Positions 51,107 to 64,000 of a stretch of 64,000 nt of DNA are shown in pieces; the stretch's first letter is position 1; every line of letters begins with the position of its first letter. The position numbers were made by a program, and so were the translations under genes. Source of the DNA: Kutzneria buriramensis (GTDB taxonomy: Bacteria > Actinomycetota > Actinomycetes > Mycobacteriales > Pseudonocardiaceae). Location of the stretch: NCBI RefSeq assembly GCF_003387475.1, contig NZ_QUNO01000015.1, forward strand, positions 248,001-312,000. The letters run 5' to 3'. The notes under the pieces are model-generated. The model did not search any database. It was not told the origin of the DNA and saw nothing but the letters and a program-made list of their open reading frames with translations.

Positions 51107-52165
51107 ATGACGGACAATCCGGAGCCGCAGTTCCAGTTCCAGTACCAGCAGCCGTGGGCTCCGCCGCAGCCCGGCGTGATCCCGCTGCGGCCACTCGACC
51201 TGGGGGCCCTGTTCGGCGGCTCGTTCAAGGTCATGTTCCGCGAGTGGAAGCCGATGATCCTGGTGCCCTTCGTCGCCAACCTGGTCGTGGGCGGCGTCGA
51301 GGTCCCCCTGCTGGCGTCCGCCTTCGCCGACTTCCCCGACGTCACGCGGCCGCCGGTGACCTTCGACGGCGTCTGGCCGTTCCTGCGCGACATCCTGGTC
51401 ATGGTGGTCGTCTCGTTGGTGCTCGGCCTGCTCGCCTGGCTGGTGACGCAGGTGATCGCCACCGTCACGGTCAGCCGGGCGGTGCTCGGCCGGCACACCA
51501 CGATCGGCCAGGCGCTGCGCGTCGGTGCGCCCCGGATGCTGCCGCTGTTCGGCCTGGCCGCGCTGATCTGGCTGATCGTCGCGGCCTGTTCGGTGCTGCC
51601 GTTCACCGTCGTGCTGGTGCTGGCCGCGGTCGCCCGGTCCGCCGGCCTCATCCTGCTGGCCTTCCTGGTGGGGCTGATCGGCCTGTGCGCCGGCGCCTAC
51701 TTCTACACCACGTTCGCGCTCGCGCAGGCCGCGCTGATCATGGAGCCGCAACCGGTACTGACCGCGTTGCGGCGGTCCCGCTGGCTGGTCCGCGACAACT
51801 GGTGGCGGATCTTCGGCATCACGCTGCTCGCCTCGCTGATGGTGTCGGTGGTGAGCTACGTGGCGCAGACGCCGCTCCAGTTCACGTCGGCCATCTCCAG
51901 CGCGTACACGATCAATCCGGCCGGTGAGGCCAACGCGGCCGAGCTGATCCGGTCGGCGCTGAGCCCGGCCACGATGATCGTCTACGTCTTCGTGACGGCG
52001 CTGGTCGCCGCGGTCGGCCAGCCGTTCATCAACGGCGTGACCACCCTGCTCTACCACGACATGCGCATCCGCAAGGAGAGCTTCCACCAGCCGCTGCTGG
52101 CGATGTCCCAGCTGCCCGACGACCTCAGCCCGCAGCCGACATCGCATCCCGAAGCCACGATGTGA
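51107..52165 (+). CDS. Polytopic membrane protein (glycerophosphodiesterase membrane-domain-like)
   Basis: A 352-residue protein with a Gln/Pro-rich N-terminus (PEPQFQFQYQQPWAPPQPG) and about six membrane helices. The pattern IPLRPLDLGALFGGSFKVMFREWKPMI, plus ALRRSRWLVRDNWWRIFGITLLASL, matches actinobacterial proteins annotated as glycerophosphoryl diester phosphodiesterase membrane domain or DUF7847. Enzymatic function is not evident. The ribosome-binding site is CAGGGGGAG. The 3' end overlaps the convergent soxG by 41 bp. Confidence 0.82.
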   Translation: MTDNPEPQFQFQYQQPWAPPQPGVIPLRPLDLGALFGGSFKVMFREWKPMILVPFVANLVVGGVEVPLLASAFADFPDVTRPPVTFDGVWPFLRDILVMVVVSLVLGLLAWLVTQVIATVTVSRAVLGRHTTIGQALRVGAPRMLPLFGLAALIWLIVAACSVLPFTVVLVLAAVARSAGLILLAFLVGLIGLCAGAYFYTTFALAQAALIMEPQPVLTALRRSRWLVRDNWWRIFGITLLASLMVSVVSYVAQTPLQFTSAISSAYTINPAGEANAAELIRSALSPATMIVYVFVTALVAAVGQPFINGVTTLLYHDMRIRKESFHQPLLAMSQLPDDLSPQPTSHPEATM

Positions 52166-52607
52166 GGTAGCCCGCGAACGACGGTCGCACCAGCAGCCGG
52201 TACGTCGGCGCGGCGTCGACCTGGTGCAGGATCACGTTCGCCCGGGCCAGCATGGTCTGGGCGCAGCGGCCCGGTCCGAACGCGCGCGGGTGCAGGTCGA
52301 TGGCGCAGCCCTGCTCCAGCACGTCCCGCGCGTCCGGCCCGGACAGCTCGTAGACGACGCGATTCGCCGACACGTCCACGACCGAGCCGGGGGTGTCGCC
52401 GAGCGCGGTCCGCAGCTGGTCCTCGGACGCGCCGAACACCAGCCACTCGTCCGGGCCGAGCCACAGCACGGCCTCGGATCCGGTGTTGGGCACCACCGGC
52501 AGCGGCGTGCCGAGCAGCTCCCCGATCCGGGTCGCGGCCGGGGCGATCGGGTCGACGCGCAGGTCGACCTGCCGCGGCAGCGCGATTTCGCGCAGGTCAA
52601 CCGTCAC
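52125..52607 (-). CDS. soxG: Sarcosine oxidase gamma subunit
   Basis: A 160-residue protein. VLWLGPDEWLVFG, SANRVVYELSGPDARDVLEQGCAIDLHPRAF and HQVDAAPTYRLLVRPSFAGYLTSWL are hallmark segments of the gamma subunit of heterotetrameric sarcosine oxidase. The complex oxidises sarcosine to glycine, passing the methyl group to tetrahydrofolate and making H2O2. It starts 11 bp inside the soxA 3' end, the last gene of soxBDAG. Confidence 0.93.
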   Translation of the reverse strand: MTVDLREIALPRQVDLRVDPIAPAATRIGELLGTPLPVVPNTGSEAVLWLGPDEWLVFGASEDQLRTALGDTPGSVVDVSANRVVYELSGPDARDVLEQGCAIDLHPRAFGPGRCAQTMLARANVILHQVDAAPTYRLLVRPSFAGYLTSWLRDAMSAAG

Positions 52608-55305
52608 GGCGCGCCCCCTCCGGGTCGTAGAAGATCGGCTCGGTGATGGTCGCGGCGATCGTCCGGTCCCGCAGCGGCGCGAGCACGGTCCGCCCGATCA
52701 GCTGTCGGCCGCCCTTGACCAGCGCCAGCGCGAAGGTCCGCTCGAGGGCGGCGCTGTGGTAGCTGGACGTCACGTGGCCGAGCATCGGCACCGGGGGTGT
52801 GAGCGGCGTGTCCGGGGCGATCAGCTGCGCGCCCTCGGGCAGCAGCTCGTCCGGGTCGGTCGGCAGCAGGCCGACCAGCTGCTTGCGGTCCGGCCTGGTG
52901 GCGTCGGGGCGCTGATAGGAGCGCTTGCCGACGAAGTCCTTGCGTGGCGAGACGATCCACTCCATGCCGAGGTCCTGCGGGGTCACCGTGCCGTCGGTGT
53001 CCTGGCCGACGATCACGTACCCCTTCTCGGCCCGCAGCACGTGCATGGTCTCGGTGCCATACGGGGTCGGCAGTCCCGTTGCCATCACGGCGTCCCAGAC
53101 CCGCGCGCCGGCGCGGCCGTCCACGTTGATCTCGAACGCCAGCTCGCCGGAGAAGGAGACGCGGGCGATGCGGGCCGGCGTGCCGTCAGCCAGAAATGCG
53201 TCCTTGAACGTCATGAAGTCGAAGGCGTCCTGGGAGCAGTCCACGTCCGGCGCGACGATCGCCAGCACCACGCGGGCCTGCGGGCCGACGACCGCGATCG
53301 TCGCCCACTGCTCGGTGACGGACGTGAACCAGACCTCGAGGTCCGGCCACTCGGTCTGCGCCCACTCCTCGAACCAGTCCAGCACCGCCGCCGCGTTGCC
53401 GGTGGTCGTCGTCGCGAGGAAACGGTCCTCGGCCACGCGCATCACGACGCCGTCGTCGAACACCATGCCGTCGGCCTTGCACAGCAGGCCGTACCGGCAG
53501 TGCCCGACCTTCAGCTTGGCGAACGCGTTGGTGTACACCCGGTTCAGGAACTCGCCGGCGTCCGGGCCCTGGATGTCGATCTTCCCCAGCGTGGACGCGT
53601 CCATCACCGCCACGTCGGTCCGCGCCGCCCGGCACTCCCTCAGCACGGCGGCCTTCATGTCCTCGCCGGGCTGCGGGTAGTACCAGGGGCGCTTCCACTG
53701 GCCGACGTTCTCGAACACCGCCCCGTTGCGTACATGCCAGTCGTGCATCGGCGTTTTCCGCACGGGGTCGTGGAGTTCGCCGCGATCCCTGCCCGCCAGC
53801 AACGCGAACGACACCGGCGTGTAGGGCGGGCGGTAGGTGGTCGTGCCCTGCGGCGACTCGGCGCCGAGCAGCTGCGCGATCACGCCGATCGCCGCGAAGC
53901 CGGAGGTCTTGCCCTGGTCGTGCGCGGTGCCGATGGTCGTGTAGCGCTTCACGTGCTCCACCGACCGCATGCCCGCCCCGGTGGCGCGCCGCACGTCCGC
54001 GACGGTCACGTCCCGTTGCAGGTCGACGAACTGCCGACCCTCCGGGCCGTCGACGAACCACACCGGGTGCGGGTCGGTTATGACTTCCCTTGCGGTGTAA
54101 GGGGCTGCTGGCTTCTCGCCGTCGAAGCCGGTCATCTTCGCCGCTTCGATGCCCGCGCTGAAGCCTTCGTCGAGGCAACCCGTCAGGTCGTACACGGCAT
54201 TCGCGGCGCCCACGATGTGCTGTGCCTGTACGGACTTGTCCGGCACGAAGGCGGCTTTTCGCTCGTCGTAACGGGTCTTGCCCTGCGACTGGGAGAACAG
54301 GTGCACGGCCGGGTTCCAGCCGCCGGACACCGCCAGCACATCGCAGGCGATCTCCCGGTCGCCGACCCGCACGCCGCCGATCCGTTGCGTGCCAAGGGCC
54401 TGCCGTACCGTTGAGCCCGCGAGCACCTCGATACCCAGCTCCCGGGCGCGGTTCACGAGCTCCGCCGGCGGTTCGGATCGACTGTCCACAATGGTCGACA
54501 CGCGGCCGGCGAGGTCGAACGCCGTCCCGTACGCGCCGTCGTTCGTCGTGGCCACCACGATGTTCTCGCCCGGCAGGGCCGCGTAGCGGTTGACGTACTG
54601 GCGGACAGCCGAGGCGAGCATGATGCCGGGCAGGTCGTTGTCCACGAACACCAGCGGCCGCTCGTGTGCGCCGGTCGCCAGCACCACATGCTTGGCGCGG
54701 ACGTGCCAGAGACGGGTTTTCGACGCGCACGCAACGAAGTTCTGGTCGTAGTAGCCGAACGCCGTGGTACCGGTGAGGACCCTGGTCTCGGGGAGGGCGT
54801 CCAGTTCCTCGACCGCGTCGGCGAGCCAGTCCAGCAGCCGGTTCTCGGTCAGCAGCGAGCCGCCGAGCTCGCGCTGCTCGTCGGCGAGGATCGTGCGCGC
54901 CCCGGTCCGGCCGGCCGCCAACGCCGCCGCCACCCCCGCCGGGCCACCGCCGACCACCAGCACGTCACAGTGCGCGTTTCGCTTGTCGTAGCGGGCGGCA
55001 TCCGGCTCGTCGGTGAGCCTTCCCTTGCCGCGCAGGGTGGTCGCCGCCAGGCCGTCGACCAGCTCGACGGTGGTGGCCAGCTGCATCGGATCGTCCAGCT
55101 GCACCAACGCGTTCGGCTCGTCCACGCCCGCCGCGAAGATCCCGCGCGGCCGCCCGAGGTAGGTGCTCGGCGCGACCGTGAGCAGGCCGTTCGCGATCAT
55201 CGCCGACGCCAGTGTGTCGCCGGCGCAGCCCGTGTGCTCGATGCCGTCCACCGTGAAGCGCAACGGCTTCGTGCGGTCGATGCGACCGCCCTCGGGGAGT
55301 CTCAT
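52597..55305 (-). CDS. soxA: Sarcosine oxidase alpha subunit
   Basis: A 902-residue subunit. The N-terminal ferredoxin-like domain (GCAGDTLASAMIANGL) is followed by an NAD/FAD Rossmann domain (DVLVVGGGPAGVAAALAAGRTGA) and a second nucleotide motif. A C-terminal aminomethyltransferase-like folate domain (RAARTDVAVMDASTLGKIDIQGPDAGEFLNRVYTN) completes it. It is somewhat shorter than the 960-residue enzymes described for Corynebacterium. ATG 55305 overlaps the soxD stop by 4 bp. Confidence 0.95.
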   Translation of the reverse strand: MRLPEGGRIDRTKPLRFTVDGIEHTGCAGDTLASAMIANGLLTVAPSTYLGRPRGIFAAGVDEPNALVQLDDPMQLATTVELVDGLAATTLRGKGRLTDEPDAARYDKRNAHCDVLVVGGGPAGVAAALAAGRTGARTILADEQRELGGSLLTENRLLDWLADAVEELDALPETRVLTGTTAFGYYDQNFVACASKTRLWHVRAKHVVLATGAHERPLVFVDNDLPGIMLASAVRQYVNRYAALPGENIVVATTNDGAYGTAFDLAGRVSTIVDSRSEPPAELVNRARELGIEVLAGSTVRQALGTQRIGGVRVGDREIACDVLAVSGGWNPAVHLFSQSQGKTRYDERKAAFVPDKSVQAQHIVGAANAVYDLTGCLDEGFSAGIEAAKMTGFDGEKPAAPYTAREVITDPHPVWFVDGPEGRQFVDLQRDVTVADVRRATGAGMRSVEHVKRYTTIGTAHDQGKTSGFAAIGVIAQLLGAESPQGTTTYRPPYTPVSFALLAGRDRGELHDPVRKTPMHDWHVRNGAVFENVGQWKRPWYYPQPGEDMKAAVLRECRAARTDVAVMDASTLGKIDIQGPDAGEFLNRVYTNAFAKLKVGHCRYGLLCKADGMVFDDGVVMRVAEDRFLATTTTGNAAAVLDWFEEWAQTEWPDLEVWFTSVTEQWATIAVVGPQARVVLAIVAPDVDCSQDAFDFMTFKDAFLADGTPARIARVSFSGELAFEINVDGRAGARVWDAVMATGLPTPYGTETMHVLRAEKGYVIVGQDTDGTVTPQDLGMEWIVSPRKDFVGKRSYQRPDATRPDRKQLVGLLPTDPDELLPEGAQLIAPDTPLTPPVPMLGHVTSSYHSAALERTFALALVKGGRQLIGRTVLAPLRDRTIAATITEPIFYDPEGARRDG

Positions 55306-55544
55306 CGCACGATCTCGTGGGTAGCGGTGTTACGGACAAGGTTGAACCACCGGCGACATCCGGCCGAGTGCGACCAGCGCTCCGCGAACTCACCCTTGGG
55401 ATTGTCCCGTACGAACAGGTATTCGCCCCACTGCTCGTCGGTCAACTCCGCCGGCCGCTCCGGGTACGGCACGCCGGCCTGGCCGCCGTAGTGGAACTCC
55501 GTCTCGTCGCGGTCGCCGCACCAGGGGCACGGGATCAGCAGCAT
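55302..55544 (-). CDS. soxD: Sarcosine oxidase delta subunit
   Basis: An 80-residue protein with zinc motif CPWCGDRDETEFHYGGQAG and later SAGCRRWFNLVRNTATHEI, as in SoxD. It is a structural zinc-binding subunit of the heterotetramer. It lies 12 bp after soxB and overlaps soxA. Confidence 0.95.
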   Translation of the reverse strand: MLLIPCPWCGDRDETEFHYGGQAGVPYPERPAELTDEQWGEYLFVRDNPKGEFAERWSHSAGCRRWFNLVRNTATHEIVR

Positions 55545-55556
55545 CTCCTACCTCCT

Positions 55557-56762
55557 CTAGTGGGCGACGGCCGCGGCGCCGTGCTCGTCGATCAGCGCGC
55601 CGGAAGTGAAGCGCTCCAACGCGAACGGCTCGTTCAGCGGGTGGGCCTTGCCGGTGGCCAGGGTGTGCGCGTACGTCCAGCCGGACGCCGGCGTCGCCTT
55701 GAAACCGCCGGTCCCCCAGCCGCAGTTGACGAACAGGTTGTCCACGGGGGTCGGGCCGATCACCGGCGACGCGTCCGGCGTGACGTCCACGATGCCGCCC
55801 CAGGTGCGCAGCACGTGCGCCCGGGCGAAGATCGGGAACAGCTCCAGCGCGGCGGCCATCTGCTGCTCGATCACGTGCACCGAACCGCGCTGCGCGTAGG
55901 AGTTGTACGGGTCGATGCCCGCGCCCATGACGAGCTCGCCCTTGTGCGCCTGGCTGACGTAGACGTGCACGTGGTTCGACATCACCACGCAGGGATGCAC
56001 CGGTTCCAGCAGTTCGGAGACCAATGCCTGCAACGGATGGCTCTGCACCGGCAGCCGGACGCCCGCCAGGCTCGCCAGCACGCTGCTGTGCCCGGCCGCC
56101 GCCAGCCCGACCCGGCCGGCCATGATCGGCCCCAGGTTCGTCTCCACACCGATGACCTTGTTGCCGTGCTTGCGAAAACCCGTGACCTCGCAGCCCTGGA
56201 TCAGGTCCACGCCCAGCTCGTCGGCCCGCCGCGCGAACGCCCACGCGACGTGATCATGCTTGGCGATGCCCGCGCGCGGCTGGAGCGTCGCGCCGAGCAC
56301 CGGATAGCGCACGTCCGGCGACGTGTTGACGATCGGGCAGAACTTGCGGACCTCGTCCGGGTCCAGCCACTCCGCGTCCACCCCGTTGAGGCGGTTCGCG
56401 TTCACGCGGCGGGATCCCTCGCGGACGTCCTGGAGCGTGTGCGCCAGGTTCAGCACGCCCCGCTGGCTGAACAGGATGTCGTAGTCCAGCTCCGCCGACA
56501 GGCCCTCCCACAGCTTCAGGGCGTGTTCGTAGATCGCCGCGGACTCGTCCCACAGGTAGTTGGAGCGGATGATCGTCGTGTTGCGGGCCATGTTGCCGCC
56601 GGCCAGCCAGCCCTTCTCGAGGACGGCGACGTTGCGGATGCCGTGGTTGGCGGCCAGGTAGTACGCGGTGGCCAGGCCGTGCCCGCCGCCGCCGACGATC
56701 ACCACGTCGTAGCCGGCCCGAGGCTCGGGATTCCGCCACAGCCGGTCGGGATGCTCGGACAT
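55557..56762 (-). CDS. soxB: Sarcosine oxidase beta subunit
   Basis: A 401-residue flavoprotein with FAD motif [43 protein letters not shown] (covalent FMN site region) and [16 protein letters not shown] / [15 protein letters not shown]. It carries the sarcosine-oxidising site with covalent FMN. GGAGG five bases before ATG 56762 sets the start. The composite operator at 56787-56822 lies directly upstream. It heads soxBDAG. Confidence 0.96.
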
Positions 56763-56786
56763 GACCACCTCCGGGTAGCCTGCGCT

Positions 56787-56822
56787 GTTGCAGATTAAGC
56801 GCACTGTTGCGTCTTCCACAAC
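56787..56822 (+). promoter_or_regulatory. Composite operator 1 (soxB promoter)
   Basis: GTTGCA-N13-GTTGCG-N6-ACAAC, starting 25 bp before the soxB ATG. It has the same architecture and exact spacers as 57730-57765 and 59414-59449. The last two elements form an IclR-like palindrome. The bound regulator is probably the IclR protein at 56898-57671. Confidence 0.75.
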
Positions 56823-56829
56823 ACCCGGC

Positions 56830-56890
56830 TTATGCAGGGAAGGACGCCTTACCTGCGTTCACCGCGGGTAAGGCGTCCTTCCCTGCATAA
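56830..56890. repeat. Perfect hairpin element (ATGCAGGGAAGG family), copy 3
   Basis: 24-bp arms (56830-56853, 56867-56890; TTATGCAGGGAAGG...) are exact reverse complements around a 13-base loop. It lies 7 bp after the IclR stop, acting as its likely terminator, and upstream of the soxB operator. Confidence 0.92.
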
Positions 56891-56897
56891 AGAGGAC

Positions 56898-57671
56898 CTA
56901 GCCGGTGTGGCCGATGCGGTGGCTGATCTCCTTGGCCCCGTCGGCCGCCAGCCGGGCGACCTCGGCGAACCGGTCGGTCGTCAGCCGGTACGAAGGGCCT
57001 GACACGCTCAGTGCCGCCACCACGTTGCCGTCCATGCCGCGGATCGGCACGGCCACGGCGTTGAGGCCGATCTCCAGCTCGTCGCCGGTGCTGGCCCAGC
57101 CGGCGACCAGGGCGGCGTCGAGCTCGGCGCGCAGCAGCCCGGGGTCGGTGATGGTGCGCGGTGTGTACATGGTCAGCGGCCGGGCCATCAGCTCCTCGCG
57201 CAGCGGCGCCGGCTGGTTGGCCAGCAGCACCTTGCCGCTTGAGGTGGCGTGCAGCGGTGTGCGCTGGCCGACCCAGTTGATGGTCGCCACGGTGGCGCTG
57301 CCCCGGACCTGGCTGACGTTGATGGCGTAGCCCTCGTCGAGGATCGCGACGTTGACGGTCTCGCCGACCTGCGCGGCCAGCCGCTCGCACACCGGCCGGC
57401 TCTCCCGGGACAGATCCATCTGTGCGGCGGTGGCCCCGGCCAGCCGCACGATGCCGAAGCCGAGCCGGTACTTGCCGCGGTCGCCGGTCTGCTCGACCAG
57501 CCCCCGGCTGTCCAGCACCGACACCAGCCGGAACGCGGTGGACTTGTGCACCCCCAGCTCGGCGGCCAGTTCGGTGATGCCCATCTCGCCGTGCAGCGCC
57601 AGGAACTCCAGCACGGACACCGCGCGGTCGACCGACTGCACCAGTGCGGCCGATCCCTCGCTTGAAGCCAT
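56898..57671 (-). CDS. IclR family transcriptional regulator of the choline/sarcosine genes
   Basis: A 257-residue IclR protein with N-terminal winged helix-turn-helix (MGITELAAELGVHKSTAFRLVSVL) and effector domain (GETVNVAILDEGYAINVSQVRG, LHATSSGKVLLANQP). It lies between soxBDAG and the Rieske/ferredoxin reductase genes and shares the divergent 104-bp gap with the latter, which contains one of three composite operators. It is probably the regulon's ligand-responsive regulator, like GbcR-type control of betaine genes in function, though not in family. Confidence 0.92.
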   Translation of the reverse strand: MASSEGSAALVQSVDRAVSVLEFLALHGEMGITELAAELGVHKSTAFRLVSVLDSRGLVEQTGDRGKYRLGFGIVRLAGATAAQMDLSRESRPVCERLAAQVGETVNVAILDEGYAINVSQVRGSATVATINWVGQRTPLHATSSGKVLLANQPAPLREELMARPLTMYTPRTITDPGLLRAELDAALVAGWASTGDELEIGLNAVAVPIRGMDGNVVAALSVSGPSYRLTTDRFAEVARLAADGAKEISHRIGHTG

Positions 57672-57729
57672 GCACGCACTGTAGTCGAGCGGATGGAGCC
57701 TTGACGGCGCATCACCCGGTGCTCACTCT

Positions 57730-57765
57730 GTTGCGTGCAGCACGACGAGTTGTGCTATACGCAAC
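57730..57765 (+). promoter_or_regulatory. Composite operator 2 (IclR / Rieske divergent promoter)
   Basis: GTTGCG-N13-GTTGTG-N6-GCAAC, with the outer GTTGCGT and ACGCAAC also forming a long inverted repeat. It sits 10 bp before the Rieske ATG and would permit control of both divergent genes. Confidence 0.8.
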
Positions 57766-57775
57766 TGGAGGCCCG

Positions 57776-58231
57776 ATGACCGAGTGCGTGTCTGAACCGA
57801 CCATGACGCGAGGCCGCGCCGTGCATCGGCGCGCGATTTCGGAGCCGGAGCCTGCGGAGTCTGCGAAATCGAGTGACGATGCACGGCTTGAGGCGGCCGA
57901 GCCACGCGCGGCAATGATCACTGTGTGCAGAGTGGATCAGCTGCCGCCTGGTGAGGCGGTCAGAGTCGCCGCCGTCGACCCGCCCATCGCCGTCTTCCAC
58001 ACGGAGGACGGCGAGTTCTATGCCGTCGACGACACCTGCACGCACCAGGACGCCTCGCTCGCCGACGGCTGGCTGGAGGGCTGCACGGTGGAGTGCCCGC
58101 TGCACGCGTCCTGCTTCGACCTGCGCACCGGCCGGCCCAGCGGCCCGCCGGCGACCACACCCATCCGCACCTACCCGGTGGTCGTCGAGGACGGCGTGAT
58201 CCGGGTGGCCTACGGCGAGGTGGCCTGCTGA
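57776..58231 (+). CDS. Rieske-type [2Fe-2S] ferredoxin
   Basis: A protein of 151 residues from ATG 57776 (with GGAGG before it), or 105 from ATG 57914 (MITVCRVDQLPPGEAV), the usual family start. The Rieske site is CTHQDASLADGWLEGCTVECPLHASCFD (CxH...CxxH). It should carry electrons from the adjacent reductase to an oxygenase such as a betaine demethylase. The 46-residue N-terminal extension is encoded by a long palindrome (57811-57898) and is probably not native. The stop overlaps the reductase ATG (TGATG). Confidence 0.9.
   Translation: MTECVSEPTMTRGRAVHRRAISEPEPAESAKSSDDARLEAAEPRAAMITVCRVDQLPPGEAVRVAAVDPPIAVFHTEDGEFYAVDDTCTHQDASLADGWLEGCTVECPLHASCFDLRTGRPSGPPATTPIRTYPVVVEDGVIRVAYGEVAC
57811..57898. 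repeat. Long inverted repeat inside the 5' part of the Rieske gene
   Basis: GTGCATCG (57821-57828) and CGATTTCG (57834-57841) pair with CGAAATCG (57864-57871) and CGATGCAC (57877-57884). Flanking GGCCGC.. and ..GCGGCC continue the stem. It separates the first ATG and its ribosome-binding site from the conserved start at 57914. Confidence 0.85.
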
Positions 58232-59388
58232 TGCGCACGGCGGCGGTGGTCGGCGCGTCGCTGGCCGGCCTGTCCACGGCCCGCGCCCTGCGCCAGCAGG
58301 GCTTCGACGGCCGGCTGGTGATCGTCGGCGACGAGCCGCACCGGCCGTACGACCGGCCCCCGCTGTCCAAGGAGTTCCTGGCCGGCAAGGCGGCGGACAT
58401 CGGCCTGCGCACCCCGGACGACGAGGCCCTGGACTTCGACTGGCGGCTCGGCACGCGGGCGCTGAGCCTCAACCCCCGCGACCGGTCGCTGCAACTGTCC
58501 AACGGTCAGACGCTGCGCTGCGACGGCGTGGTGATCGCGACCGGCGCCCGCGCGAGATGGCTGCCGGGCACGGAAGGCGTCACCGGCGTGCATGTGCTGC
58601 GCACGTTGGACGACGCGATCCGGCTGCGCAGCGAGCTCGTGCCAGGCGTGCGGCTGGTGGTGGTAGGGGCCGGCTTCATCGGCGCCGAAGTGGCGTCGAC
58701 CGCCCGCTACCTGGGCGCGGACGTCACGGTGATCGAGGCGGAGCCGCTGCCGCTGAGCCGCCAGTTCGGCAAGGAACTGGGCATGGTCTGCGCCGGCCTG
58801 CACGCCGATCACGGCGTCCACCTGATCACCGGCGTCTCGGTGAAGCGCATCCTCGGCGCGGCCCGCGTGCGAAGCGTGGAACTGGACGACGGCCGCCAGA
58901 TTCCGGCGGAGGTCGTGGTGGTCGGCATCGGGGCGGTGCCGAACATCGAGTGGCTCGCCGGATCCGGCCTCCAGTTGGAGAACGGCGTCGTCACGGACGC
59001 CGCGTGCGCGACCGGTCTGCCGGAGGTGGTGGCGGTCGGCGACGTCGCGGCGTCGTACAGCGTGCACGCCCACGGGCGGCACCGGTCGGAGCACTGGACC
59101 AACGCCCTGGAACAGCCTGTGACGGCGGCGGCGACGCTGCTCGGCGATCCGCGACCTCACCTCTCCGTGCCGTATTTCTGGTCCGACCAGTACGGCGTGC
59201 GCATCCAGTTCGCCGGCGTCCGGTCCGAGGGCGACACCGTCCGGGTGATCGAGGGCGACACCGACCGGCGGAGCTTCCTCGCCGGCTACGAACGTGATGG
59301 CCTGCTGGTCGGGGTGCTGGCGATGAACCAGCCGAAGCTGTTCGCCCGCTGGCGACGGCAGCTGGCCAAGCCGGTGGTGGCCCCTTGA
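58231..59388 (+). CDS. FAD-dependent ferredoxin reductase
   Basis: A 385-residue reductase with FAD motif AAVVGASLAGLSTARALR, YDRPPLSKEFL, NAD motif VVVGAGFIGAEVASTARYLGADVTVIE, and AVGDVAAS. It is of the BphA4/ThcD type that reduces Rieske ferredoxins with NAD(P)H. The C-terminal reductase domain has SEHWTNALEQ. Translationally coupled to the Rieske gene, it forms an electron chain for an oxygenase not present in this window. Confidence 0.93.
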   Translation: MRTAAVVGASLAGLSTARALRQQGFDGRLVIVGDEPHRPYDRPPLSKEFLAGKAADIGLRTPDDEALDFDWRLGTRALSLNPRDRSLQLSNGQTLRCDGVVIATGARARWLPGTEGVTGVHVLRTLDDAIRLRSELVPGVRLVVVGAGFIGAEVASTARYLGADVTVIEAEPLPLSRQFGKELGMVCAGLHADHGVHLITGVSVKRILGAARVRSVELDDGRQIPAEVVVVGIGAVPNIEWLAGSGLQLENGVVTDAACATGLPEVVAVGDVAASYSVHAHGRHRSEHWTNALEQPVTAAATLLGDPRPHLSVPYFWSDQYGVRIQFAGVRSEGDTVRVIEGDTDRRSFLAGYERDGLLVGVLAMNQPKLFARWRRQLAKPVVAP

Positions 59389-59413
59389 CGGAGGCCCCGC
59401 CACCGTCGATGCT

Positions 59414-59449
59414 GTTGCGAACTCAGCGTGCCGTTGCGTAATCAGCAAC
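59414..59449 (+). promoter_or_regulatory. Composite operator 3 (aldehyde dehydrogenase promoter)
   Basis: GTTGCG-N13-GTTGCG-N6-GCAAC, 20 bp before GTG 59470. The spacers are identical to the other two copies. GTTGCGTAATCAGCAAC is its palindromic half. Confidence 0.8.
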
Positions 59450-59469
59450 AACCCTGATCGGGGGTCCCC

Positions 59470-60933
59470 GTGGCGGAACTGTTCATCGGCGGGCACTGGA
59501 CCACCGGGCGCGAGACCCGCCCGGTGCTCAACCCGTTCGACGGCAGCGTGCTCACGACCGTCGCCGAGGCCGACACGAACGACGCCCTGGCGGCGGTCGC
59601 CGCGGCGAGATCCGCCTTCGACGCGGGCCCGTGGCCCAAGACCTCCGCCGCCGAGCGCGGCGCGCTGCTGAACGCCGTCGCCGACCTGCTGCTGCGGGAC
59701 CGGGACGAAATCGCCCGTACGGAGACCCTCGACACCGGCAAGACGCTCGGCGAGAGCGTGGCCGACGTGGACGACGTGGTCCGCGTCTTCCGCTACTACG
59801 CCGACCTCGCCGACAAGCACCCCGGCCGGGTCGTCGACACCGGCATCGCCACCGCGCAGAGCCGGATCGTGTACGAGCCGGTCGGCGTCTGCGCGCTGAT
59901 CACGCCGTGGAACTACCCGCTGCTCCAGGCGTCCTGGAAGATCGCGCCCGCGCTGGCCGCCGGCAACACCGTGGTGGTCAAGCCGAGCGAGGTGACGCCG
60001 CTGACCACCGTCGCGCTGGTCCGGCTGATCGAGGAGGCCGGCGTCCCGGCCGGCGTGGTCAACCTGGTGCTGGGCGCCGGCGCCACCGTCGGCGCGGCGC
60101 TGGCCGAGAGCCACGACGTGGACCTGGTGTCGTTCACCGGCGGCCTGGCCACCGGCCAGCGGATCATGATCGTGGCCGCCGGCAACATCAAGAAGGTCGC
60201 GCTGGAACTGGGCGGCAAGAACCCCAACATCGTGTTCGCCGACGCCGACCTGACCACCGCCAAGGACCAGGCGCTCAACGCCGTCTTCCTGCACGCCGGC
60301 CAGGTCTGCTCGGCCGGGGCGCGGCTTCTGGTGCAGGACAGCGTCTACGACGAGTTCGTCGCCGAGATCGCCGCCCGTGCCGACCGGATCCGCATCGGCA
60401 ACGGGCTCGACGAGACAAGCCAGAGTGGCCCGCTGGTCTCGGCCGAACACCGGGCCAAGATCGAACGCTACGTGGAGTCGGCGATCGCCGAGGGCGCCAA
60501 GCTGCTCGCCGGCGGACGTCGGCCCGAGGAACCCGAGCTCCAGCAGGGCTTCTTCTACCGCCCCACGGTGTTCGCGGACTGCCGCCGCGACATGACCGTC
60601 GTGCGCGAGGAGACGTTCGGGCCCATCCTCACCGCCGAGCGCTTCGCCACCGAGGAGGAGGCGATCGAACTCGGCAACGACACCGACTACGGCCTGGCCG
60701 GCGCGGTGTGGACGCGGGACGCCGGCCGAGCCGCGCGCGTGGCCGGCGCCCTGCGGCACGGCACCGTCTGGATCAACGACTACCACCCCTACCTGCCGCA
60801 GGCGGAATGGGGCGGCTTCAAGCGATCCGGCATCGGCCGCGAGCTCGGACCCACCGGTCTCGACGAGTACCGCGAGGCGAAACACGTCTACACCAACACC
60901 GATCCGAAACCACTCGGCCTGTTCCCGGGGTGA
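59470..60933 (+). CDS. betB: Betaine-aldehyde dehydrogenase-type ALDH
   Basis: A 487-residue NAD(P)-dependent aldehyde dehydrogenase with [29 protein letters not shown], catalytic Glu in [12 protein letters not shown], nucleophile Cys in [13 protein letters not shown] and [13 protein letters not shown]. It should oxidise betaine aldehyde to glycine betaine, given the choline dehydrogenase-like gene next to it. The substrate is inferred from context. GTG 59470 is used. Its stop overlaps the next ATG. Confidence 0.9.
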
Positions 60934-62576
60934 TGAGGATGTACGACTTCGTGGTCGTCGGCGGCGGATCCGCCGGCAGCTGCCTGGCCAACCGACTGTC
61001 CGCCGACGCGAGCGTGAAGGTGCTGGTGCTGGAGGCCGGCCGCCCCGACTACATCTGGGACGTGCTGGTGCACATGCCGGCGGCGCTCACCATGCCCATC
61101 GGAAACCGCTTCTACGACTGGAAGTACGAGTCCGAGCCGGAGCCGGCGATGGGCGGCCGGCGCATCTACCACGCGCGCGGCAAGGTGCTGGGCGGCTCGT
61201 CCAGCATCAACGGCATGATCTTCCAGCGCGGCAACCCGCTGGACTATGAGCGGTGGGGCGCGGACGAGGGCATGAAGTCCTGGGACTACGCGCACTGCCT
61301 GCCGTACTTCAAGAAGATGGAGAACTGCCTGGCCGGCGCCGACGAGTGGCGCGGCGGCGACGGGCCGCTGGTGCTGGAGCGCGGGCCGGCCGACAGCCCG
61401 CTGTTCAAGGCGTTCTTCCAGGCCGTGCAGGAGGCCGGCTACCCGCTGACCAAGGACGTCAACGGGTACCAGCAGGAGGGCTTCGCCCCGTTCGACCGCA
61501 ACCTGCACCGCGGCCGCCGGCTCAGCGCCGCCCGCGCGTACCTGCACCCGGTGCGCAACCGTCCCAACCTGACGGTCAAGACCCGGGCCTTCACCACCCG
61601 GATCCTGTTCGAGGGCACCAAGGCCGTCGGCGTCGAGTACGTCCAAGGCGGACGGACGCAGCAGGTGCGGGCCAACGAGGTGATCCTCTGCGGCGGCGCG
61701 ATCAACTCGCCCCAGCTGCTCCAGCTCTCCGGTGTGGGCAACGCCGCGGAGCTTCAGGAGCTGGGCGTCGACGTGGTGCACGACCTGCCCGGCGTGGGGG
61801 AGAACCTCCAGGACCACCTCGAGGTCTACATCCAGTACGCCTGCACCAAGCCGGTCTCGGTCGCGCCGTACATGAAGTGGTACAACAAGCCGCTGGTCGG
61901 CCTGAAGTGGTTGTTCCGCAAGGGACCCGGCGCCACGAACCACTTCGAGGGCGGCGGCTTCGTGCGCAGCAACGACGATGTCGCCTACCCGAACCTGATG
62001 TTCCACTTCCTGCCCATCGCCGTGCGCTACGACGGCTCGCTGCCGGCCGGCGACCACGGCTACCAGGTGCACGTGGGCCCGATGTACTCCGACGCCCGCG
62101 GCTCCGTGAAGATCACGTCGAAGGACCCGCGGGTCAAGCCGGCGCTGCGGTTCAACTACCTGACCACCGAGCAGGACCGCCGCGAGTGGGTCGAGGCCGT
62201 CCGCGTCGCGCGGAACATCCTCACCCAGCACGCCTTCGACTCCTACAGCGGCGGCGAGATCTCACCCGGGCCGTCGGTCCAGACCGACGAGGAGATCCTG
62301 GCCTGGGTGGCCAAGGACGGCGAGACGGCGCTGCACCCCTCGTGCACGTGCCGGATGGGGGTGGACGAGCAGTCCGTCGTGGACCCCGAATCCCTTCGGG
62401 TGCACGGGGTCGACGGGCTGCGGGTCGTCGACGCGTCGGTGATGCGCTACGTCACCAACGGCAACATCTACGCGCCGACCATGATGATCGCGGAGAAGTC
62501 CGCGGACCTGATCCTCGGCCGGCAGCCCCTGCCGCCGGTCGAGGTGGAGTTCTACCGCCACCGGGAGCAGTCATGA
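60933..62576 (+). CDS. betA: GMC oxidoreductase, choline dehydrogenase-like
   Basis: A 547-residue GMC flavoprotein with FAD motif [22 protein letters not shown] signature 1 ([28 protein letters not shown]) and catalytic His region HPSCTCRMG. Signature 2 is [16 protein letters not shown]. It should oxidise choline to betaine aldehyde. ATG 60933 overlaps the aldehyde dehydrogenase stop (TGATG); ATG 60939 is possible. It is coupled to the permease by ATGA. Confidence 0.9.
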
Positions 62577-64000
62577 GTGTCGGCAATTCCTCCAACGACG
62601 ACGGCCATGGGGTAACGGAGTTAGGGTACAAGCAGGAGTTCGAGAGAACCCTGGGCAACTTCCACACCTTCGCGGCCGGTATCAGCTACATCTCCATCCT
62701 CACCGGCACGTTCCAGATGTTCTACTTCGGCTTCTCCGTCGGCGGCCCGGCCAACTGGTGGTCGTGGCCGATGGTCTTCGCCGGCCAGCTGATGGTGGCG
62801 CTGTGCTTCGCCGAGCTGTCGGCCCGTTACCCTGTCGCGGGCTCGATCTACAACTGGTCCAAGAAGCTCGGCAACCCGCACGTGGCCTGGCTGGCCGGGT
62901 GGATGATGCTGGTGGCCTCGATCGTCACGGTGGCGTCGGTGGCGCTGGCCTACCAGATCACGCTGCCGCAGATCGCCGACTTCTTCCAGATCGCGCCGGA
63001 CAGCGCGGTGAACGCGGTCATCCTGGGCTCGGTGCTGATCGTGTTCAGCACGGTGGTGAACGCGTGGAGCACCAAGCTGATGGCGCGGATCAACAGCGCC
63101 GGCGTGTTCATCGAGCTGATCGCCGCGGTGCTGCTGGTGGTGCTGTTCGCGTTCGAGATCGTGCGCGGGCCGCAGATCGTGCTGGACACCGCCCACAAGG
63201 GCGACGGCGTGACACTGGGCTACTTCGGTGCCTTCCTGGTCGGCTCGCTGGCGTCCGCGTACGTCATGTACGGCTTCGACACCGCCAGCTCCCTGGGCGA
63301 GGAAACCGTTGACCCGCGCAAGAACGCGCCGCGGGCCATCCTGCGCGCGCTCATCGCCTCGTTCGTCATCGGCGGCCTGATCCTGCTGCTGGCGCTGATG
63401 GCCGTGCGCAACATCAACGCGCCGGAGCTGAGCACCATCGGCCTCCAGTACATCGTGATCGATGTGCTGGGATCGGGGTTGGGCAAGGTGTTCCTGGTCG
63501 CGGTCGCCATCGCGATCACCGTCTGCATCCTCGCCGTGCACACCGCCGCCATCCGCATGACGTTCGCGATGGCCCGGGACAACAACCTGCCGGCCGGTTC
63601 GTGGCTGGCCAAGGTGCACGGCAAGCAGCGCACCCCGGTCCGGCCGGCGGTGCTCATCGGCCTCATCGCGATCGTGCTGCTGGTGGTCAACATCGGCCAG
63701 CCGCAGATCTTCCAGCTGGTCACCAGCATCGGCGTGGTGCTGATCTACGTGGCCTATCTGCTGGTGACGCTGCCGATGCTGATCGCGCGGCTGCGCGGCA
63801 CCTGGCCGGGCAAGGACGCGCCGGCCAAGGGCTTCTCGTTGGGGCGCTGGGGATTGCCGGTGAACATCCTGGCCGTGCTGTGGGGCGCGGGCATGGCGAT
63901 CAACCTCGGCTGGCCGCGTAGCGAGGTCTACAACCCGACCCCGCCGTTCCACTGGTTCCTCCAGTGGGGTGCGGTGCTGTTCGTGGGTCTGGTGGCGGCG
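62573..64000 (+). CDS. APC family amino acid/choline-type permease, C-terminus beyond window
   Basis: At least 476 residues, open at the window end. It starts at ATG 62573, overlapping the betA stop as ATGA. The N-terminus ([33 protein letters not shown]) and later [46 protein letters not shown] are features of the APC superfamily (amino acid permease 2 / GABA-permease type). About eleven membrane helices are visible. Operon context suggests uptake of choline, betaine or a related amine. Confidence 0.9.

Follow-up and report, generated by a model that had tools for sequence, protein, structure and literature searches.

Three copies of a composite DNA element in a stretch of the genome of the soil actinobacterium Kutzneria buriramensis are probably the operators of the IclR-family regulator encoded among them, which most likely represses its own gene and neighbouring genes that probably serve the breakdown of choline, betaine and sarcosine, and would be released by a compound of that pathway. 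The stretch, referred to here as the window, covers 64,000 nucleotides (NCBI RefSeq assembly GCF_003387475.1, contig NZ_QUNO01000015.1, positions 248,001 to 312,000 of the forward strand); positions below are counted from its first letter. The assignment of the elements to IclR is well supported by sequence comparison with related genomes.

The original prediction, made from the letters of the window, had described the element as GTTGCR-N13-GTTGYG-N6-RCAAC and judged it to be under selection. All three copies lie where it had placed them, matching on the plus strand of the window without a single mismatch, and they are the sole exact matches in the 11,968,322 bases (65 contigs) of the genome:

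56787..56822, minus strand: operator 1, exact match, 24 bases upstream of soxB (sarcosine oxidase beta subunit)
57730..57765, no strand assigned: operator 2, exact match, in the divergent gap between iclR and a Rieske ferredoxin gene, with four recognisable boxes
59414..59449, plus strand: operator 3, exact match, 20 bases upstream of betB (a betB-like aldehyde dehydrogenase), second box degenerate

The three are confined to 2.7 kb of a 12-Mb genome, and their spacer sequences are unlike one another; none of 100 dinucleotide shuffles of the window contained three exact matches (mean number of exact matches 0.00). Each element is made up of two tandem 17-bp palindromes, that is, four boxes, with centres 19 bp apart, laid out as GTTGCG-N5-box 2, two bases, box 3-N5-CGCAAC and roughly symmetric overall. 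The soxB and betB copies each have one degenerate inner box, which is why three boxes (numbers 1, 3 and 4) were recognised at first. The initial description, a palindrome with an additional direct repeat, holds up as to a palindrome of IclR type and room for two dimers, but the direct repeat proves to belong to a further palindrome, partly degenerate, of which it is the outer arm. The middle copy is nearly symmetric, its own reverse complement matching the pattern with one mismatch; with respect to the gene, the intact palindrome is distal in the soxB copy and proximal in the betB copy. Read towards soxB, operator 1 opens with an intact GTTGTG-N5-CGCAAC, followed by a palindrome with a degenerate first box and GCAAC as its last.

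The same architecture emerges from related genomes when the pattern is not supplied. An IclR match was found in 216 of 297 genomes of the family, and 53 genomes were read (54 stretches of 20 kb each); 30 gaps between iclR and the Rieske gene were reduced to 17 non-redundant ones by leaving out four near-identical Kutzneria gaps and nine that shared 10-mers. A motif search of width 36 in these 17 gaps returned the element with a score of 766, against 257-263 in five mononucleotide-shuffled sets (60 starts for the real set, 20 for each shuffled one), the outer boxes being richer in information than the inner. The resulting 17-site matrix, whose training had included the window's middle copy and excluded the other two, ranks the betB and soxB copies directly after the middle one across the 64-kb window (28.1 and 25.1, respectively), while outside the sites no place scores above 2.1. 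Occurrences of GTTGYG-N-CRCAAC, with N from 2 to 60, number 82 in 54 loci, 39 of them at N=24 and 27 at N=5, the remaining 57 spacings sharing 16 with at most three at any one; four scrambled versions of the arms gave none at either peak. This unprompted recovery, together with the uniqueness in the genome and the conservation before the same genes in relatives, bears out the view that the element is selected.

Sites are present at the orthologous loci. Among the six other genomes of the genus, the gap element and the soxB element each occur in five and the betB element in four; in genome G126 the betB copy is weak and partial (15.2 bits, E 0.44), and in G087, of the same genus, there is only an IclR of 58% identity, without any strict site. 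At least one strict site is present in 41 of the 54 stretches around IclR orthologues. Over 58 loci there are 56 strict sites, 52 of which have iclR or a pathway gene no more than 260 bp downstream: 24 are in the iclR/Rieske gap, ten before dimethylglycine-oxidase-like genes (one of these in common with soxB), seven before betB, six before soxB, three before betA, and one each before the Rieske gene alone and iclR alone. In each of the two Nocardioides loci that have sites, one precedes betB; in a locus from another family of the same order (L169), a site precedes a dimethylglycine-oxidase-like gene. A scan of the phylum with stricter filters gave matches at E <=0.005 in 2 of 296 genomes, one being the genome studied here; either the motif in this form is narrowly distributed or the scan is insensitive.

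The element also goes with the regulator gene. A profile built from 23 copies matched, at a threshold of E <=0.1, 19 of 19 chosen genomes that have the IclR gene and 1 of 19 that lack it, the single exception being a partial match (E 0.09) with none of nine reference proteins nearby (Fisher p 1.1e-9, a value that ignores relatedness). The IclR-bearing genomes were our own choice, and two of them (G016 and G271) had supplied sites to the profile; the others were drawn from 20 of the 81 genomes without IclR, one at 74% completeness being passed over. The same holds inside genera g8, g21 and g26: no match in members that lack the IclR gene, a match in the searched members that have it. Seven matches away from a listed IclR were opened, and six of them precede a Rieske ferredoxin gene, five of these six with an IclR of 49-57% identity in the locus. 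The recognition helix VHKS(T/S)A(F/S)RL is kept in all 13 orthologues examined, one of which (L012, Streptomyces) shows no site in its 6 kb; it is kept in none of 11 proteins compared among the 21 other IclR matches of the K. buriramensis genome, the nearest (L158) reading VHKSTVLRL. These correlations point to the local IclR protein as the likely binder of an IclR-type operator, as had been proposed.

The operator would then be one of GTTGCG-N5-CGCAAC-type palindromes paired in tandem, each pair seating two IclR dimers, which at the observed distance between centres could sit about two helical turns apart and are probably joined in one tetramer. So placed, IclR would cover the promoters of the Rieske gene, betB, soxB and its own gene and thereby repress them. 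The operator edges lie 10 bases from the start codon of the Rieske gene (if this is the ATG at 57776), 20 from that of betB (GTG at 59470), 24 from that of soxB (ATG at 56762) and 58 from that of iclR (ATG at 57671), distances that would suit a repressor sitting over the promoter or the start site. Betaine, dimethylglycine and sarcosine are candidates for the pathway compound that would bind the C-terminal domain and make IclR let go.

That the same protein acts instead as an activator, switched on by a pathway compound at a three-box operator of the PcaU/PobR type (a palindrome with an external direct half-site), appears unlikely. Activators usually do not bind as near to start codons as these copies lie (10-24 bases), and four boxes are recognisable in the gap copies of relatives, both palindromes being complete in genome G019. 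The activator would account for the one degenerate inner box of the soxB and betB copies, which leaves three clear boxes in each, and it has precedents in a survey of the IclR family (Suvorova and Gelfand 2021, PMC8222616), whose main text gives external direct half-sites for PcaU, PobR and HmgR and three-box sites predicted in 32 orthologous groups.

It is less probable still that the elements are operators of some other DNA-binding protein, its gene inherited together with the cluster. Binding by IclR is a prediction here, and some of the relatives' sites, for example those before dimethylglycine-oxidase-like genes, lie far from any IclR gene in the stretch read. Against such a protein, presence and absence track the IclR gene, also inside the three genera named above, the gap beside iclR holds 24 of the 56 sites, and the length and half-site type fit the IclR motifs set out in the main text of the survey (PMC8222616).

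With up to two mismatches, on both strands and over the whole genome, the pattern is about as frequent as a reversed control pattern (10 matches against 8), so that matches beyond the locus are background and true sites are not randomly scattered. Those similar counts might speak for chance or a dispersed repeat, but both are ruled out by the clustering of the only three exact matches, their differing spacers, the shuffles, the arm-spacing peaks and the placement in 58 loci, where the element precedes the same genes in other genera.

Run on the K. buriramensis genome at E <=10, the profile gave seven matches, four of them in this locus, operator 2 (28.2 bits, E 3.1e-5) being counted on both strands and operator 3 scoring 20.6 bits (E 0.008). 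The other three are partial: C6:595682 (15.4 bits), C27:87655 (14.4) and C14:103856 (12.7). The first two, by a mechanical gene caller, lie inside predicted frames, as do the two-mismatch matches C2:403565 and C2:15689; these four were rejected as further targets, and no further target in this genome is claimed. G019 has five further sites, three of them inside predicted frames (on C1, on C3 and at C4:485019), one at a frame edge (C4:447781) and one where a frame matching soxA at 29% has its 5' end (L051:3345).

Further copies were noted in relatives. In G126 a second IclR gene elsewhere in the genome has its own copy of the element (L122:4940-4975, 22.7 bits), beside a gene of the metallo-beta-lactamase fold and not a betaine gene. 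In seven loci (L053, L054, L055, L057, L059, L060 and L077) a second IclR gene of 50-53% identity adjoins betA, and in L054, L055 and L059 the element also precedes betA. Nocardioides iriomotensis has a weaker copy (L014:16363-16398) between two genes, one with a DAO domain and one for the OpuAC binding protein of an ABC transporter of the glycine-betaine type.

Several observations weigh against reading the elements as operators of a repressing IclR protein. Operator 1 matches the profile weakly (13.9 bits, E 1.17), below two of the partial matches elsewhere in the genome, and no sigma-70-like hexamer pair was found in 56600-59600, nor any overlapping the operators. Thirteen of the 54 stretches around IclR orthologues have no strict site, and in six of these (L085, L086, L090, L091, L095 and L098) a looser rule finds none either. 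Four of the 56 sites (L073, L076, L082 and L088) have no gene by the 260-bp rule, and the seventh of the opened profile matches (L153, from an IclR-bearing genome) lies near none of the nine reference proteins. Finally, because the loci were chosen around IclR, some of the closeness to pathway genes follows from the choice itself, which does not hold for the location of sites immediately before starts.

The genes around the three operators are the following:

52125..52607, minus strand: soxG, sarcosine oxidase gamma subunit (Pfam SoxG above cut-off; TIGR01375 110.7 bits, below the cut-off of 143.95)
52597..55305, minus strand: soxA, sarcosine oxidase alpha subunit (TIGR01372 1184.7 bits, cut-off 1164)
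55302..55544, minus strand: soxD, sarcosine oxidase delta subunit (TIGR01374 121.0 bits, cut-off 116.5)
55557..56762, minus strand: soxB, sarcosine oxidase beta subunit (TIGR01373 641.6 bits, cut-off 529.45)
56898..57671, minus strand: iclR, IclR-family regulator of 257 amino acids (Pfam IclR_C 7.1e-41 and HTH_IclR 9.7e-15, both above cut-off)
57776..58231, plus strand: Rieske ferredoxin gene (Pfam Rieske 1.1e-22; NF007422 above cut-off)
58231..59388, plus strand: ferredoxin reductase (Pfam Pyr_redox_2 and Reductase_C; NCBIfam matches under cut-off)
59470..60933, plus strand: betB-like aldehyde dehydrogenase (TIGR01804 633.2 bits, just under the cut-off of 668.6)
60942..62576, plus strand: betA, choline dehydrogenase (TIGR01810 855 bits, cut-off 732.1)
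62606..64000, plus strand, extending 102 bases beyond the window: amino-acid-permease-type transporter (L100:1606-3102; Pfam AA_permease_2 1.1e-40)

The domains of the regulator, HTH_IclR at the N-terminus (54.5 bits, cut-off 22) and IclR_C at the C-terminus (140.1 bits, cut-off 24), fit membership of the IclR family. Against NCBIfam it reaches no equivalog, its best match being BhcR (NF045644; 183 bits, below the cut-off of 350), and it scores 155.1 bits with the PcaR/PcaU/PobR subfamily model TIGR02431, below the cut-off of 284.75.

Past the permease comes a gene with the domains DAO, FAO_M, GCV_T and GCV_T_C, which we take to be a dimethylglycine oxidase, a name that no model gave it, and then a Rieske oxygenase. 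No other PF00848 match occurs in the genome; among the NCBIfam models this oxygenase scores best with GbcA, glycine betaine monooxygenase (6.5e-65), its 219 bits falling well short of the equivalog cut-off of 670. Since the betB cluster runs past the window in this way, the three operators could govern a route from choline to glycine. The regulon originally put forward, for choline, betaine and sarcosine, survives the tests made, with 52 of 56 sites preceding genes of the pathway or iclR, but the pathway reaches further than was claimed. Operator 3 may drive betB, betA, the permease, the dimethylglycine oxidase and the betaine oxygenase, whose spacing suggests co-transcription; iclR and the electron donors of the oxygenase may be under operator 2, and the sarcosine oxidase under operator 1.

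For the Rieske ferredoxin gene we infer a start at the ATG at 57776, 10 bases past the element, from which the frame is open; the family match starts near 57914. The extra in-frame stretch at the start of the gene (57776-57913) has an internal inverted repeat, and a comparable stretch occurs in G126 (159 bases from operator to match) and not in G109, G142 and G057 (12 bases). A mobile origin of its part 57806-57913 was considered and rejected, this sequence being single-copy in the genome, its own inverted repeat aside. Another inverted repeat, with two 24-base arms delimited by eye (56830-56853 and 56867-56890), lies between the iclR stop and operator 1, a terminator-like place, and has no T tract; no terminator with a T tract was found in 56600-59600.

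Somewhat more tentatively, we lean towards seeing here a so far undescribed regulon common to much of one actinobacterial family, in which one IclR clade would control the whole aerobic pathway that leads from choline to glycine by way of betaine, dimethylglycine and sarcosine. It would do so by means of a tetramer operator that spans 36 bp across its outer arms, which are nearly fixed, and has inner boxes that can decay; the same operator would also act on two divergent promoters, one for iclR and one for the electron donors to the betaine oxygenase. The finding yields a candidate regulator for choline and betaine breakdown in actinobacteria, along with a sharp DNA motif and a list of targets. 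The operators also form a natural series, ranging from those with both palindromes complete to those in which the inner boxes between the outer arms have decayed; with it, the reading of DNA by IclR tetramers could be tested. Beyond its own field this is ordinary gene control, yet a clear and testable case.

Among known regulators, GbdR of Pseudomonas aeruginosa reportedly responds to glycine betaine, as the proposed regulator may, but is said to be an activator of the AraC type and not an IclR protein. SoxR of Bacillus thuringiensis is said to control sarcosine oxidase genes, working with sigma-54; control of sarcosine oxidase would be common to both, but SoxR is not known to be of the IclR family. 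Among the open-access papers searched, none was found to be about an IclR regulator of the choline, betaine and sarcosine pathway, and the main text of the IclR survey (PMC8222616) mentions neither choline, betaine, sarcosine, dimethylglycine nor Rieske. According to that text, IclR proteins bind as dimers or tetramers, act as repressors, activators or both, and as a rule control their own gene along with one or two neighbouring operons; it also describes motifs of the type GTT-11-AAC, and tandem sites at a distance of 18-22 nt in 94 orthologous groups. The elements resemble the group 1 GTT-11-AAC subgroup of the survey in their 17-bp palindromes with GTT and AAC ends (here GTTG...CAAC), seen as the N=5 spacing peak, and its tandem sites in the 19 nt between their centres, seen in the outer-arm peak at N=24 (39 of 82). 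With the operators of PcaU, PobR and HmgR they share an IclR-family palindrome with a further half-site outside it, but here that half-site is part of a second palindrome, complete in some relatives such as G019, and the pathway differs. They depart from the published consensus GTTYCRYW3RYGRAAC in having GTTGYG and CRCAAC, the base after GTT being G and not Y. As far as the main text of the survey goes, then, the layout of these operators is of an already published IclR kind, found here with other bases next to GTT.

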